Notes under the pieces: generated by a model
Seen by the model: the letters and a program-made list of their open reading frames with translations, nothing else
Told to the model about the DNA's origin: nothing
Database searches by the model: none
From: Promethearchaeota archaeon
GTDB lineage: Archaea; Asgardarchaeota; Lokiarchaeia; Sigyniarchaeales; Promethearchaeaceae
Direction: 5' to 3'
Length of the DNA stretch: 57,909 nucleotides
NCBI GenBank assembly: GCA_004524545.1
Contig: SDNX01000003.1
Location: 1 to 57,909 of the forward strand
Made by a program: the position numbers and the translations under genes
Part shown: positions 40,949-48,081 of the stretch, one piece after another
Layout of the letters: every line of letters begins with the position of its first letter
Numbering within the stretch: the first letter of the stretch is position 1

Positions 40949-41086
40949 TCATTTTTCAGCTCCCATTGAAGATTGATAATCTAGATTTTTGGAAGATTCC
41001 TAATACTTTTTTTAATACGATTGCATTTAGGGGAAAAATACCTATTATTCTATGCTAAACACTACCAAATACGAGGTAATTATTTG

Positions 41087-41947
41087 ATGACTCAAGTTAC
41101 TGAAGTTTCTTTACATGTGAAATGTCCAATTTGTGGACTAGAGAAGGATATTAACGTACCTGCATATGTATTTGAAAGCAAGCAATTTGGGGCATTGAAA
41201 ATCCAAATTCCCAAAGGAAGTGTATGTGCGGAACACCAATTTCTTATCTATGTCGATACGAAGGGTAATATTCGATCATATGAAACCTCAGATTTCCACC
41301 TACCAACTGCAATTAAACATGAAGAAAAAAAAGCCCTGTTAAAAATCACTGATTTTGTAGGTATGGTTGGAGAATTCGCAACTTTAAATGTTATTCATGC
41401 CTTGCTTTTGGATCTGCCAATCTACCTTGTTCAAACTAAATTTGACCCAGAAATGCTTGAACAAATGGAAAAAACAATCAATAATACTTTGACTGCTCTC
41501 TTACCTGGCTTCTTCAAGAATCATAATGATTTGAGAATTATCGATCGAAAAGAACTCTATGGATTCCGACAAACGGACCTTATACTAGCCATCGATCAAT
41601 TTGGGTATATTCTCATCTGCCCATGGGAAATCAACAAATTTGAGATTGAACAGGAAATACTGGAAAAAGTCTTAAAACTGGACGATTTCAAACAGCAAAA
41701 AATTATCTTTCAACAATTATTGACAACTTTTTTCCGGAAGCTCAATTATGTTGGAGATTTATTGTTGAAACAAGAAGTGATTTCTATTGATGATCTGAAA
41801 TCTGAATTTAAAAAGACATTCATGCAGAAACGAGTATCCAATTACGAAATTGAACTAATAAAAGCTGTTCTTACTCACAGATTCAAGAAAGATACTTCAA
41901 AAATTCAACAAAAAGCATTCAATAAACTCAAGGAAAGCCTTTGGTGA
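41087..41947 (+). CDS. zinc-ribbon protein of unknown function
   Basis: A 286-residue protein. The first 45 residues contain Cys-x2-Cys (VKCPICGLEK) and a Cys-x2-His (SVCAEHQF) set that could form a zinc-binding knuckle. The rest is a helical and alpha/beta mixture without recognised motifs. ATG at 41087 is preferred because a GAGGT Shine-Dalgarno lies 11 bases upstream; a TTG 22 codons earlier has no such signal. It precedes the SCP2 gene. Confidence 0.7.
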   Translation: MTQVTEVSLHVKCPICGLEKDINVPAYVFESKQFGALKIQIPKGSVCAEHQFLIYVDTKGNIRSYETSDFHLPTAIKHEEKKALLKITDFVGMVGEFATLNVIHALLLDLPIYLVQTKFDPEMLEQMEKTINNTLTALLPGFFKNHNDLRIIDRKELYGFRQTDLILAIDQFGYILICPWEINKFEIEQEILEKVLKLDDFKQQKIIFQQLLTTFFRKLNYVGDLLLKQEVISIDDLKSEFKKTFMQKRVSNYEIELIKAVLTHRFKKDTSKIQQKAFNKLKESLW

Positions 41948-42688: not shown

Positions 42689-43600
42689 CTAAAAACGTCC
42701 CGGTGTTTTACTTTTAATATCGGGAGTTTTACTGTTGATGTTAGGAGTCTTTGATTTCATCTGAGCTTTTCGCAATAAATCTTCCAAATCTCTTTGCATG
42801 TTGTCAACTTTACGTAATTTATCATCTAATTCCTTTCTATCTTGTTTTAATCGCTTCTGTTCATCCTCCAATCGGGAGCTCTCCTTTCGCAATTGACGTT
42901 TTTCATCCTCAATAGTACGTTTTTCATTCTCGATTCGTTTATTATCATCCCTCAATCGCTCATTATCATGTTTAAGGCGATTATATTCCTTCTCTTTGTC
43001 ATCAATTCTATTCTCTAATTGCTTTGCTTTGCGTTCCAGATCAGGAATTTGTTTCTTATATGAATAATACTCATCTTCGGCTCGTTTTGCTTTTTCTTCT
43101 GCTTCGCGTTTTTTATCATTGAGTCGTTTTTCCTCACGATTTATCTTATCCTCTGCATCTCGTTTCTTTTTATTCAGATGATCTTCTTCCCTACGTTTTT
43201 TATCAGCAAATTCTTTCTGTTCATCCCTAAATTTTCTAACGGAGTAATTTATCGCATCTTCCCGACTATCCAATCGTTCTTTTTCAAGTTTTAATCCTTT
43301 ATTTTGCTTTTCTAGCCAAGCATTTTCATCTTGAAGTTTATCACGCTGTTTTTGTAAGTCTTTCATCTCTTTTTGGAATTTTTGTCTTTCTTGCTCCATT
43401 TCCTCTAATGAACGGGGATATTTCTCCATCTTCTTTAAAATTTTCTCCCATTCTTTTCGTTCGGTCTCCAACTTTCGCCTTTCACCTTCTAATCTCTCTC
43501 TTTGTCTCCGGATTTCGTTCGGGTCCACATCTGTGTTTGATCCAGGTGTTTTGGAGATTATTTCTTCGGGAGTTTTTGAATGGATTTCTTTACGTCTCAT
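42689..43600 (-). CDS. coiled-coil protein with terminal SKTP motifs next to ubiquitin operon
   Basis: A 303-residue protein made almost entirely of coiled coil (about residues 30-275; Arg, Glu and Lys rich). Its ends carry five copies of the tetrapeptide Ser-Lys-Thr-Pro: residues 8-11 and 16-19 at the N-terminus, and 283-286, 290-293 and 297-300 at the C-terminus. The C-terminal copies are spaced by exactly 7 residues. The same tetrapeptide occurs twice (7-residue spacing) in the tail of the ubiquitin-like protein encoded divergently next to it. This suggests a shared partner or a physical link; a scaffold role is inference. Confidence 0.75.
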   Translation of the reverse strand: MRRKEIHSKTPEEIISKTPGSNTDVDPNEIRRQRERLEGERRKLETERKEWEKILKKMEKYPRSLEEMEQERQKFQKEMKDLQKQRDKLQDENAWLEKQNKGLKLEKERLDSREDAINYSVRKFRDEQKEFADKKRREEDHLNKKKRDAEDKINREEKRLNDKKREAEEKAKRAEDEYYSYKKQIPDLERKAKQLENRIDDKEKEYNRLKHDNERLRDDNKRIENEKRTIEDEKRQLRKESSRLEDEQKRLKQDRKELDDKLRKVDNMQRDLEDLLRKAQMKSKTPNINSKTPDIKSKTPGRF

Positions 43601-43751
43601 ACATAATGTACAGAATTTACACTCAAAAAATTATTGAGTCAAAGTCAATCTATTTAAGGATAACATGTTTTCCGCATAAATTTTTAAATTCAAACTTGGT
43701 CATTTAGATATATTTTTTTCGACAGTAAAAAAATATCAAAGTGAAATAAAA
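43601..43751. promoter_or_regulatory. divergent promoter of SKTP coiled-coil and ubiquitin genes
   Basis: The 151 bases serve both genes. ACTCAA (43621-43626) and TTGAGT (43634-43639) form an inverted repeat with a 7-base spacer, close to the expected start site of the coiled-coil gene (TATA-like CTTAAATAG, 43651-43659 read on the minus strand). For the ubiquitin gene, an AT-rich GATATATTTT (43706-43716) lies about 40 bases before the ATG. Shared regulation of the two genes is plausible. Confidence 0.5.
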
Positions 43752-44111
43752 ATGTCAGACGAATTTGATGAAGATTTAGATGAAGAATTAGATGAACCAG
43801 AAGAAGTTGCATCTAAAACTCCAAGCGTTGCTTCTAAAACTCCAGCACCAAGAGTAGCTGGAGATGACCTATCAATTTTCCTTATGTCCACTATTGGTCC
43901 AGGAGAAAAGAAACAGAAACTTGGCATCAATACAGGAAACAGTGTTGGTGAGGTGAAAAAAACCGTTGGTAGTATTTTCGGTGTCGATCCCTCGGATTTC
44001 CATCTGAGCCATGGAGGAATTACATTGGATGATGGAAACTACATGAAAGATTATCCCCTTAAAGATGGAGATACGGTGCTATTAATCCCAGCAAGTACTG
44101 CGGGAATATAA
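43752..44111 (+). CDS. ubiquitin-like modifier with SKTP tail and non-diglycine C-terminus
   Basis: A 119-residue protein. The N-terminal 37 residues are acidic and unstructured (DEFDEDLDEELDEPEEV) with SKTP at 21-24 and 28-31. Residues 38-112 match the ubiquitin beta-grasp fold; the segment SVGEVKKTVGSIFGVDPSD aligns with the alpha-helix of ubiquitin and the following DGDTVLLI aligns with its last strand. The usual Leu-Arg-Leu-Arg-Gly-Gly ending is replaced by Ile-Pro-Ala-Ser-Thr-Ala-Gly-Ile. Removal of the last Ile would expose a single Gly, as in Ufm1 or Atg12. It is the first gene of a set with E1, E2, JAMM and RING. Confidence 0.85.
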   Translation: MSDEFDEDLDEELDEPEEVASKTPSVASKTPAPRVAGDDLSIFLMSTIGPGEKKQKLGINTGNSVGEVKKTVGSIFGVDPSDFHLSHGGITLDDGNYMKDYPLKDGDTVLLIPASTAGI

Positions 44112-44178: not shown

Positions 44179-45411
44179 ATGTCAAAATCAGATTTTTTTT
44201 CAAAGGAACTATCCGAAGAAGAACGAGAGTTATACGATCGTCAATTTCGTCTAAAGGGATGGAATCAAGGAGTTTTGAAAAACTCTCGAGTATTAATTGC
44301 AGGTATAGGAGGACTTGGATGTGAAATTGCGAAAAATTTAGCCATGGTAGGTGTTGGACACATAGATTTAGTTGATTTAGATGTAATCGAACATTCCAAT
44401 TTAAATCGGCAGATGCTTTTTGTTGGTGCAGAAGTTGCGAAACCGAAAGCACTTGCTGCTGTTGACATGCTGATGAAAATTAACCCAAACATTGTCATTA
44501 AAGGCTATCATTCGTCTCTGGAACAACTACCGCCAATATTATTTAAAAAAGCGGATGTGATTGTAGGAGGATTGGATTCTATGCAAGCCCGTCTTAATCT
44601 GAATACTCAAGCTATTCGATTTAACAAACCTCTAGTGGATGGTGGAGTGAATGGATACCACGGACATGTCTATACAATATTACCTAAAGATAATGCCTGT
44701 TTTGAATGCTATCCAGTTTCAAGCACCGAAAGCGATGATATGGCGGCATGTACTGTTGTTGGTATCCCGCGTAAAAGAATTCATTGTCTTTTCAAAGCAA
44801 TGATGAAATTTGAAGATATAAATACTAATCCACCAAATCCGAAAAACTTGAAGGAAATTAAATTTTTACAAGATGAGGCAAACATTTTGGTAGAAAAATA
44901 TGGATTCGGGCTTACATTTGAAGAAAAGGAAATCATCCAAGTAATTGACCACCATGATCCAGGGATAATCACAATCAATGCAGTAATAGCAAGTTTACAG
45001 TCCCATGAAGTTGTAAAACTTCTGAATGTGCTTAAAGGAAATAAGGGATTAGGTCTACCAAACAAAAAATATATTATTTATAATGGAATGACAGCGGGAT
45101 TTTACCATTTGGATAAACCCCGGAATGCAAATTGCACTCAATGTGGAAATAAAGTGTTACGTGAAGAATTCTACTTACGTAAGGATCAATCTCTACAGAC
45201 GATAATTAATGGATTGAAAATGAAAGGTTATCAATTAGACCCTGAAATGGAACCTGTCGTGACAGTACCTGATTTCAACACTATTCGTGAACTGGATCTA
45301 GAAAAAACAGTCTTAGATAATGAATTATTTTCACTATCCTTACTCACTGTCTCCGGATTTCTTGAAGGAGATATCTATATAACGATTCGTATATTTAAAG
45401 ATAAAAACTAA
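44179..45411 (+). CDS. E1-like ubiquitin-activating enzyme
   Basis: A 410-residue single-chain E1 of the Uba3/Uba2 type. The adenylation domain has the nucleotide loop GIGGLGCE (residues 42-49), the DLDVIEHSNLNRQ segment and GLDSMQARL. Zinc Cys are Cys174-x2-Cys177 and Cys319-x2-Cys322. The catalytic Cys is predicted to be Cys191 (MAACTVVGIPRKR), matching the position in Uba3. Residues about 330-410 resemble the E2-recruiting ubiquitin-fold domain. It should adenylate the modifier encoded upstream and pass it to the E2 encoded downstream (47 bases apart). Confidence 0.93.
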   Translation: MSKSDFFSKELSEEERELYDRQFRLKGWNQGVLKNSRVLIAGIGGLGCEIAKNLAMVGVGHIDLVDLDVIEHSNLNRQMLFVGAEVAKPKALAAVDMLMKINPNIVIKGYHSSLEQLPPILFKKADVIVGGLDSMQARLNLNTQAIRFNKPLVDGGVNGYHGHVYTILPKDNACFECYPVSSTESDDMAACTVVGIPRKRIHCLFKAMMKFEDINTNPPNPKNLKEIKFLQDEANILVEKYGFGLTFEEKEIIQVIDHHDPGIITINAVIASLQSHEVVKLLNVLKGNKGLGLPNKKYIIYNGMTAGFYHLDKPRNANCTQCGNKVLREEFYLRKDQSLQTIINGLKMKGYQLDPEMEPVVTVPDFNTIRELDLEKTVLDNELFSLSLLTVSGFLEGDIYITIRIFKDKN

Positions 45412-45458: not shown

Positions 45459-45986
45459 ATGTCCCTCAGACAAAAGCGAGTAGCTCAAGAATATGCTCGT
45501 TTAAAAAAATTGTATAATCAAGGCACTATTAAACAATTGAAAGCCTTTGACTCTGGTAGTAAAAGCATTGACCATTTGAAAATTCTTATTCAAGGACCGA
45601 AAGGGAGTGCATATCAAGGAGGATATTTTAAATTAGAAATGAAATTTCCTCGGGATTATCCTCAGCAGCCCCCATTCGTACGACTCCATACCCCGATTTG
45701 GCATCCTAATTTTTGGCCAAAACCATCGGAATATCCTGGACAACGGAATATCTGCTTAGCGCTGGTTGATCCGAATTACATAGGTAAGAAAGGAGGATGG
45801 AGCCCTTCAAAGACATCTGTTACCGTAATACAGGCTATAATCGCTATGTTGAACATATCCGGATCCCTAATCAATCCTACTGATGTGTTTAACAAGAAAG
45901 CTGCTTTGGAAATGATGGATAACCAACGGCAATTTGATAAAAAAGTCAAAAATCTTGTGAAAAAATATGCTACCAAAAAATGGTAG
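45459..45986 (+). CDS. E2-like ubiquitin-conjugating enzyme
   Basis: A 175-residue UBC-fold protein. Features: N-terminal helix with RVAQEYARLKKL, HLKILIQGPKGSAYQGG, FPRDYPQQPPFVRL, the His82-Pro-Asn motif, catalytic Cys99 (NICLALV), and SPSKTSVTVIQAIIAML. Between HPN and the catalytic Cys there is an insertion of about 7 residues (FWPKPSEYPGQ) compared with typical E2s; no acidic residue of the usual Cys-Leu-Asp is present. It forms an operon with E1 and the JAMM protease (19 bases). Confidence 0.94.
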   Translation: MSLRQKRVAQEYARLKKLYNQGTIKQLKAFDSGSKSIDHLKILIQGPKGSAYQGGYFKLEMKFPRDYPQQPPFVRLHTPIWHPNFWPKPSEYPGQRNICLALVDPNYIGKKGGWSPSKTSVTVIQAIIAMLNISGSLINPTDVFNKKAALEMMDNQRQFDKKVKNLVKKYATKKW

Positions 45987-46005: not shown

Positions 46006-46806
46006 ATGAATGATGAGGAACCAAAAGATATAGAAAGCCTAAAGAAAAAACTGAAGGAGAAGCTCAGAAATGAAATCGAAAAGGAAGTTCTTATTGAGAT
46101 TTATGAGGAATTAAAGGACGAGGAAAAAGAAACTATCCAAGATGAAATTGTTCATGAAAAACACGAATCTGAAGCTTTAGAAACAGGTCTAAAATCTCCT
46201 CCAAAAGTAGAACCCGTAAAAGAGAACAAGAAAGCTGAAAAAGTTCATGTTAAAATTAAGCCCATTATGAAAATTGTGTCCCATTCAATTAAGTACGCCA
46301 ACACAAATGTCCCCAAAGAATATTGGGTTGAGGTAATTGGCTTGTTAGCAGGGAAATATGATGAAAAGAATGACTTGCTGTACCTCGAGGACGCCTATCC
46401 AATGGGACATGGTAATGCTGTGTATGCTGAAATTAAAGATTATAAGAATTTTTATAAAGCATTTGCAGATTTACGTGCCAAAGGCCAATTTGTATGCGGA
46501 TGGTATCATTCTCACCCTTCGTATGGATTATTTTTAAGCCAAGAGGATATGGGAACGCAGGCACGCTATCAAAAATTGTGGGATAAGTCGATTGCTTTGG
46601 TGATTGATCCTACTCAACTTGATGGTACTACACTTGGGTTCAATATTTTCCGTGCGAATTTGAAAAAACAGAAGTGGTACAAGATACCGTTTTCCATCGA
46701 AGGAAATCTTGACGCAAAATCCTTACCTGGACTAGTAGATTTTGTGAGTCCTTTAGCAGAAGGTAAAAAGATTTTCTTGGAATATGACGAATCCTCAAGC
46801 GGATAA
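46006..46806 (+). CDS. JAMM/MPN+ deubiquitinase-like metalloprotease with N-terminal coiled coil
   Basis: A 266-residue protein. The first 60 residues are a charged coiled coil and a short linker follows. The MPN domain has the complete JAMM set: Glu109 (EVIG), His168 and His170 (HSHP), Ser178 and Asp181. The spacing matches Rpn11/AMSH. It should remove or process the modifier, an essential step if the modifier tail Ile must be trimmed. It lies in the operon after E2 (19 bases) and before the RING gene (21 bases). Confidence 0.94.
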   Translation: MNDEEPKDIESLKKKLKEKLRNEIEKEVLIEIYEELKDEEKETIQDEIVHEKHESEALETGLKSPPKVEPVKENKKAEKVHVKIKPIMKIVSHSIKYANTNVPKEYWVEVIGLLAGKYDEKNDLLYLEDAYPMGHGNAVYAEIKDYKNFYKAFADLRAKGQFVCGWYHSHPSYGLFLSQEDMGTQARYQKLWDKSIALVIDPTQLDGTTLGFNIFRANLKKQKWYKIPFSIEGNLDAKSLPGLVDFVSPLAEGKKIFLEYDESSSG

Positions 46807-46827: not shown

Positions 46828-48081
46828 GTGATTTACGTGACTACTAAAATACCTAGAATACTTATATATGTGGTCTTGATAGGACTCAGTCTCGTCATTG
46901 GAGTAATATTTGGATATACTCCAGGGATATCTGTAGAGGGTTTCTTATCTTTCTTATTCATTGGTATTTGGATATGTTATACCGTGGAGATATTTATTCG
47001 AATAAAAAAAATGAAGGAATATCGCTCCACGTTAAATAATGGGGCTTTAATTTTTGGAAATCTATTAGTCTCCAGTTTTTATGGAATATTTGGAGATTTT
47101 ACTCCATTTCTTAATCAAGCGTTGTTTCCGGATACATTTCTCCGGATTAATATCTGGGTGACGATCTTTTCTTTACCGTATCTCATTTTTGGGTCGTTTC
47201 TTCTGTTATTCTCAATTACTAAATATTTTTCCGTCTATATCAACGATAACGCATTCAACGCGAGAAAATTCACCGTGTTGATGGGTTTTGTGTTTCTTGG
47301 ATTTGATTTGGTGTATATATTACTTCGACATGGAGTATTTTCCTTGGGCCCGTTAGACTTTTCCCATTTATCTGGCACATTTAACATCTACATCATTGTA
47401 CATATGTGTATAATCGTTTTTTTTGGTTTAATAGGTATTTTCACTCGCAATCGCTCCTCATCTGCATATAATATAGACCAACTCACATCCCGCATGAATG
47501 ATATTGATCGTCGTATCAATGCTGCTGATAAGACATCTGCAGCCGCCCGTAGAAGTGAACGAAGAGCTCGAGAAGCGGAACAAGAACGTGAGAAAGAACG
47601 AAAAAAGAAAGAAGCACAACGACGTAAGCAATCGTCCAATCGTCCGAGTTCTTCGCCTAGAACGTATCTATCTTCACGATCCTCCCGATCCCAACCATCA
47701 ACGAAAGTGTCGAACATACCCCGTTCTAACTCGAGTCCCAAAACATCAGCACGGAGTAGCTCAAGCTCTCAATCCAAGCCTGTTTCAGTAAGCAATAAAG
47801 AATTAGCAAAAATGAGACCCAAAACGGGTGTCCTAAGTAAAGAAGATTTCATGTGCATTTTCTGTTTTGAAATGCCCGATAGTTCTGATAGAGAAGGTAT
47901 TGTTTTATGTCCCCATTGCCGATATCCCGCTCATTACCGTGAATTTAAGGAATGGGTACGCAATTCCAAATTATGCTCTCGATGCGATGGAGTGTTACCC
48001 CCCAGCTTTATTCAAAATCCAAAAGTAATTCCGGTTAAAACCTATCTTAAAGCCTATAAGCTCTTTAAAAAACAATTTTAA
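46828..48081 (+). CDS. membrane-embedded RING-type protein, candidate E3 ligase
   Basis: A 417-residue protein with a GTG start. The first 205 residues contain about six membrane helices (for example residues 10-30, 35-57, 70-92, 106-130, 147-165, 185-204). Then comes a long charged, Ser/Arg-rich linker with a short coiled coil, and a C-terminal RING-like motif: Cys343-x2-Cys346-x14-Cys361-x2-Cys364-x4-His369-x13-Cys383-x2-Cys386. His363 could be an additional ligand. Its place in the operon (21 bases after JAMM, 22 before GNAT) makes it the candidate E3, with the RING on the cytoplasmic side. Confidence 0.85.
   Translation: MIYVTTKIPRILIYVVLIGLSLVIGVIFGYTPGISVEGFLSFLFIGIWICYTVEIFIRIKKMKEYRSTLNNGALIFGNLLVSSFYGIFGDFTPFLNQALFPDTFLRINIWVTIFSLPYLIFGSFLLLFSITKYFSVYINDNAFNARKFTVLMGFVFLGFDLVYILLRHGVFSLGPLDFSHLSGTFNIYIIVHMCIIVFFGLIGIFTRNRSSSAYNIDQLTSRMNDIDRRINAADKTSAAARRSERRAREAEQEREKERKKKEAQRRKQSSNRPSSSPRTYLSSRSSRSQPSTKVSNIPRSNSSPKTSARSSSSSQSKPVSVSNKELAKMRPKTGVLSKEDFMCIFCFEMPDSSDREGIVLCPHCRYPAHYREFKEWVRNSKLCSRCDGVLPPSFIQNPKVIPVKTYLKAYKLFKKQF

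Follow-up and report, generated by a model that had tools for sequence, protein, structure and literature searches.

Operons of this kind, which combine a ubiquitin-like modifier with its enzymes, are already known in archaea (PMC5654768, PMC6043591, PMC9192718). The Caldiarchaeum system had no known physiological substrate, and its study made use of a stand-in from a different archaeon (PMC5654768). A Ub-ESCRT system was described in Asgard archaea; its Ub and ESCRT regions are reported to be separate in Lokiarchaeota, and the passages searched mention neither a coiled-coil neighbour nor a tail motif (Hatano et al. 2022, PMC9192718). Asgard archaea are the closest archaea to eukaryotes and relatives of the ancestors of our cells. 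The targets of archaeal ubiquitin and the choice of sites on them are an open question. SUMO-2/3 carries a disordered acidic tail with the same short lysine motif (psi-K-x-E) as its targets. UFM1 and ATG12 end in a single C-terminal glycine, not in GG, and their enzymes differ. Here we describe a Lokiarchaeia locus whose sequence by itself points to a candidate native partner, to candidate lysines and to a sequence rule. The open-licence papers searched, a part of the whole literature, gave no description of the tail motif, the coiled-coil partner or the K-x-P proteins reported below.

The DNA comes from a Lokiarchaeia genome, and the window is the whole stretch that was analysed (57,909 nt, SDNX01000003.1). 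It contains a ubiquitin operon in which the modifier gene comes first, followed by the genes for E1 (ThiF), E2 (UQ_con), a JAMM protease and a membrane RING-like protein (Table 1). The modifier matches Pfam ubiquitin above the cut-off (E 8.6e-8). In an AlphaFold2 model its core has a pLDDT of ~90 and residues 1-27 lie below 50, and the top Foldseek matches are ISG15, Caldiarchaeum ubiquitin (6fno, 6fj7) and NEDD8. Modifier C-termini read [AES]S[TIV]AG followed by a short tail; they carry a single glycine and no di-glycine. The partner protein shows heptad autocorrelation (0.52 at lag 7, 0.47 at lag 14) and has 56% charged residues; no Pfam family passes the cut-off for it, the best being APG6_N with 26.1 bits against the 45 needed. 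The E2 is a canonical UQ_con protein, and Cys99 is invariant across 32 E2s. Among solved structures, its closest relatives in sequence and in fold include Ubc13 and UbcH5 and are not specifically Ubc9; the E2 structure model, which has low-confidence stretches around the active site, served for the fold match only. In the RING-like protein, Cys pairs and a His are conserved among 38 aligned orthologues, with no Pfam RING match. Ahead of its JAMM domain, the protease has a conserved stretch at the N-terminus that is charged and helix-like and reads IKEKIKKELLEEIYTELKSEE in relatives. Elsewhere, a 308-aa protein with a CPICG element near its start is encoded at window 41021-41947, and a 319-aa protein at L126:201-1157 has an N-terminal CPKC element, SKTP and a modifier domain.

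Table 1. Genes and SKTP copies at the locus (window coordinates)
Feature	Position	Strand	Description or evidence
Ubiquitin-like modifier, 119 aa	43752..44111	+	two SKTP in an acidic, disordered tail at the N-terminus; ubiquitin fold; ends in ...LLIPASTAG-I
Coiled-coil partner, 303 aa	42689..43600	-	heptad rod, KTP-bearing tips at N- and C-end
Divergent intergenic region, 151 bp, start codon to start codon	43601..43751	.	layout conserved
E1-like activating enzyme, ThiF family	44179..45411	+	Pfam ThiF E 4.7e-57
E2 conjugating enzyme, invariant Cys99	45459..45986	+	Pfam UQ_con E 8.4e-27
JAMM-type protease	46006..46806	+	Pfam JAB E 1.4e-12; JAMM motif in 51/51 orthologues
Membrane protein with C-terminal RING-like zinc domain (CxxC...CPxC...H...CxxC)	46828..48081	+	sequence and alignment
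SKTP copy 1, modifier tail, residues 21-24	43812..43823	+	direct reading
SKTP copy 2, modifier tail, residues 28-31	43833..43844	+	direct reading; K29, P31 invariant (28 sequences)
SKTP, coiled-coil residues 8-11, N-tip	43568..43579	-	direct reading
SKTP, coiled-coil residues 16-19, N-tip	43544..43555	-	column equals EKTP of orthologues; K 37/37, P 37/37
SKTP, coiled-coil residues 283-286, C-tip	42743..42754	-	direct reading
SKTP, coiled-coil residues 290-293, C-tip	42722..42733	-	direct reading
SKTP, coiled-coil residues 297-300, C-tip	42701..42712	-	direct reading

The sequence-only reading had reported seven SKTP copies in the modifier and its divergent neighbour, 151 bp apart, and direct reading gave the same copies, residues and gap. 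Its count of four 7-residue intervals holds for three: only four within-cluster intervals exist, and the fourth is 8. SKTP had also been said to be absent from the other proteins read closely; one isolated, unrelated copy lies at window 18352 on the minus strand, inside a 306-aa protein. The coiled-coil protein has 5 KTP, against a mean of 0.04 after shuffling. In the genome searched (2.55 Mb, 76% complete), [ST]KTPxxx[ST]KTP has 3 matches, all within the two genes, and reversed-pattern controls have 0. Single SKTP-like sites show no excess genome-wide (198 versus 254 in the control), and thus the genome is not SKTP-rich. All seven copies match the longer pattern I/V/M-x-x-K-T-P, which has 36 six-frame DNA matches in the genome including these 7. 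All but three of the others were read, and none of those is clustered; most of them belong to frames that are short or spurious, and a few lie inside larger proteins. Thus, the paired pattern is exclusive to the two genes, and SKTP clusters are not spread over unrelated proteins of this genome.

The pair is conserved among Lokiarchaeia. With the coiled coil as query, one locus per genome was found in 34 of 59 relatives, and the named relatives are MAGs of Lokiarchaeota, Prometheoarchaeum, Helarchaeota, Sigynarchaeota, Sifarchaeum and Borrarchaeum. Several coiled coils scored below the first cut-off and were recognised by their tips. In nearly all loci read with enough flank, the coiled-coil gene precedes the first modifier gene in divergent orientation; the divergent layout was seen in 46/46 measured loci, with start-to-start gaps of 118-217 bp in 44 of them and of 375 and 757 bp in the other two. 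As for co-occurrence with the ubiquitin operon, a check proposed from the start, the modifier is present in 34/34 genomes with the coiled coil, and the coiled coil is present in 0/11 genomes without the modifier. The Fisher p of 1.6e-5 is optimistic since the genomes are related, and distant coiled coils are under-detected. These results strongly support a dedicated, conserved modifier/coiled-coil pair that shares a short motif. In G005, a closed genome of 4.36 Mb from the same family in which the modifier was not found, a relic of ~30 codons of the coiled-coil C-tip adjoins a relic of the RING C-terminus, in the gene order of the window (L056:6106-6390). The block from coiled coil to RING is deleted there as a unit. 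This fits a functional unit, but a single deletion of linked genes would account for it too.

Several variations of the operon were also observed. In one complete chromosome (L067:11504-12500 and L105), E1 lies beside a second modifier and is truncated to ~154 residues; E2, JAMM and RING do not follow it, and further modifier copies are located elsewhere. Modifier-less genomes retain a second E2-like family, ~40% identical to the operon E2 (L170-L175, L178-L182). In many Lokiarchaeota, a protein of 262-290 aa with a C-terminal ubiquitin domain is encoded convergently to the modifier (L105:4188-4991, minus strand, and equivalents). It adjoins a winged-helix protein and the second modifier gene, and in L105 it has an N-terminal hydrophobic segment.

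Alignments revealed which part of the motif is conserved. We aligned 48 coiled coils, of which 37 under 85% identity were used for tip counts. The N-tip (37 orthologues) reads I/V, any residue, E/S/D, K (37/37), T (30/37; V in 4, I in 2, K in 1) and P (37/37), and the C-tip (36 orthologues) reads I/M, K/R, S/T, K (36/36), T (27/36; K in 3, R in 3, and Q, H and Y) and P (35/36). Tips are better conserved than the coil (48% versus 33% identity in pairs under 50% identical). In modifier tails, K-x-P is found in 90/90 scored and KTP in 86/91; KSP, KAP or KVP is the sole form in a few of them. K29 and P31 are invariant in the alignment of 28 modifiers, matching the invariance of the ubiquitin core. 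The hydrophobic residue at -3 is present in the coiled coil and in many modifier tails. Strict SKTP with 7-residue spacing was rejected as the conserved feature, since both vary among orthologues; copies in modifier tails are ~5 to 13 residues apart. K is invariant and P nearly so, while the Ser, the +1 residue and the spacing vary. This indicates that the conserved unit, as read from the alignments, is K-x-P within [I/V]-x-[S/T/E]-K-[T/V/I]-P, with a preference for a beta-branched residue at +1. The psi-K-x-E consensus was also rejected; psi-K-x-[ED] occurs in 5/90 modifier tails.

This pattern bears on three explanations. First, the tips are lysine-rich, and the motif could be chance or low-complexity sequence. 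This is refuted by the conservation of orthologous positions throughout Lokiarchaeia, by the exclusive paired pattern and by the K-to-P spacing, which peaks sharply at 2 in the 48 coiled coils (242 cases); we regard its probability as negligible. The motif, kept as K-x-P in the orthologues of both proteins, is almost certainly real, conserved and functional. Second, the sequence-only reading had suggested proline-directed Ser/Thr phosphorylation sites, and T-P is indeed the commonest form (88/119 K-x-P in coiled-coil tips). However, K and P are kept where V, I, K, R, Y, Q, H or A takes the place of Thr, +1 is a residue other than Ser/Thr in 7/37 orthologues at the N-tip and 9/36 at the C-tip, and the K-x-P proteins of two other families described below have mostly I or V at +1. 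Replacement of Thr this often argues against phosphorylation, which was rejected as a required feature and is a very unlikely explanation. Third, the motif might be of the P-[S/T]-x-P type read by an ESCRT UEV domain. Eukaryotic UEVs bind P[ST]xP (PMC10936438), and Asgard UEV proteins bind ubiquitin (PMC9192718). P[ST]xP, however, occurs in 2/90 modifier tails and 0/96 coiled-coil tips; a PTAP-like motif was rejected on these counts, and this reading seems even less probable than phosphorylation.

We searched E1, E2, JAMM and RING orthologues for the motif as a conserved tail and found none, and a third operon protein bearing it in this way was rejected; K-x-P in JAMM and RING lies within folded parts or is scattered through linkers. 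Confined to the modifier and its partner, the motif thus belongs to the substrate side of the cascade. Its strict conservation in the disordered ends of both proteins suggests that these lysines are the site where the modifier is attached or read. A motif on the modifier and one partner is what acceptor sites should look like, or else two ligands that share a reader. Arg never takes the place of the motif lysine: R-to-P at spacing 2 was found 0 times against 242, while K and R exchange freely at position -2 from that lysine (53 to 36). This favours lysine chemistry. It is therefore plausible, and it is the reading that we tentatively prefer, that the modifier is attached to the motif lysines as its dedicated acceptor sites, that it forms chains and that the coiled coil is its dedicated substrate. 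We count for acceptor sites that, in vitro, lysines of substrate, E2 and ubiquitin receive isopeptide bonds from a related archaeal cascade (PMC5654768).

The main rival, ranked just below acceptor sites, is the other proposal of the sequence-only reading, a docking motif for a common partner. K-x-P would be bound non-covalently by one reader that all these genomes have (E2, E1, JAMM or RING); the rod would be a scaffold or competitor, not a substrate, that gathers the machinery at its tips, and the modifier would use the same site. A context of six residues, in which -3 is I/V and +1 is T/V/I, favours docking, as do multivalent copies ~5-13 residues apart. As candidate readers, the genomes examined have in common the operon enzymes and the modifier itself. 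On the other hand, a site for a positive residue usually tolerates some Arg, of which there is none in 242 cases, and it is easier to see why the modifier itself should carry an acceptor site than a docking site. We consider docking quite possible. A variant is that K-x-P peptides are bound by the modifier's own ubiquitin fold, as SIM peptides are by SUMO, so that modifiers assemble with each other and with the rod without covalent bonds. Restriction of the motif to modifier and partner, with the enzymes lacking it as a conserved tail, speaks for this variant. The single-chain AlphaFold2 model speaks against it: residues 1-27, including the first copy, are below pLDDT 50, so that no confident docking of the tail on its own core is predicted, and docking in cis was rejected. 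Overall, binding by the ubiquitin fold, in cis or in trans, is unlikely.

Other families of the phylum were also compared. A profile search found the modifier in 109/228 genomes of the phylum, and in families f12, f14, f15 and f16 most tails read keep the acidic stretch and SKTP, TKTP, AKTP or KVP, with a few copies lacking them. In f12, the divergently encoded neighbour looks disordered, is ~250 aa long and contains 13 K-x-P and 0 R-x-P; in f15, a 241-aa protein near the RING gene contains 13 K-x-P along with 2 R-x-P. Each has more K-x-P than its shuffles (p 0.0002-0.0044), the excess is larger for K[TVI]P, and no Pfam family scores above the cut-off in the K-x-P-rich proteins scanned. Fusions of the modifier domain were observed as well. 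In Sigynarchaeota (L061:11122-12852 and L086:2729-4660), a von Willebrand A domain is joined to a C-terminal modifier domain that ends in TAG and a short tail, with K-x-P in the linker directly before the modifier domain. In Borrarchaeum (L098:1539-3359 and L111:2733-4487), a HerA-like ATPase has a C-terminal modifier domain ending in AG; its gene lies on the far side of the coiled-coil gene, and no K-x-P tail precedes the domain.

For acceptor sites, then, the comparison of genomes adds that the coiled coil is found only in genomes with the modifier, that f12 and f15 have K-x-P proteins and that the 262-290 aa proteins, whose ubiquitin domain has no TAG end, also have no motif. Against them, the context (I/V at -3, beta-branched +1) exceeds that of known acceptor motifs read by an E2 and is typical of docking motifs, the E2 is nearest to Ubc13/UbcH5, the f12 and f15 proteins are rich in K and P anyway, the HerA-ubiquitin fusion has a TAG end without the motif and a few tails have K-x-P only without Thr at +1. 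If the motif lysines are acceptors, the modifier would be attached to them by the E1-E2(-RING) cascade of the operon, and the E2, with or without RING, would recognise K and the proline at +2, as Ubc9 does psi-K-x-E. The modifier tail would be the site of chain growth, like the tail lysine of SUMO-2/3. The rod, a dedicated substrate with acceptor lysines at each end, would become a platform decorated with modifier chains, which the JAMM protease may trim. The broader proposal, somewhat more doubtful, is that K-x-P is an Asgard acceptor code, common to the modifier tail and one rod per genome, that chains are built at both rod ends and that the chain-forming tail is of archaeal origin, independent of the SUMO tail. 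The parts are for the most part peptides or small soluble proteins, which makes the choice of sites by an Asgard ubiquitin system directly testable in vitro.

Among known systems, the Asgard Ub-ESCRT system concerns the same archaeal group and the same Ub genes (Hatano et al. 2022, PMC9192718). The operon of Caldiarchaeum subterraneum (Ub, E1-like, E2-like, srfp RING, Rpn11/JAMM) has the same enzyme set and the ubiquitin fold. Unlike it, the Lokiarchaeia operon has a divergent partner that shares a motif with the modifier, and the modifier has an acidic K-x-P tail and, in place of a GG end, A-[T/I/V]-A-G followed by a short variable tail. The single C-terminal glycine resembles that of UFM1 and ATG12, although the E2 here is a canonical UQ_con protein. 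The locus differs from SUMO in that Pro and not Glu is at +2, the hydrophobic residue is at -3 and not at -1, and the E2 is not specifically Ubc9-like. The likeness to SUMO-2/3 is that modifier tail and partner carry a common lysine motif in which the lysine is invariant.
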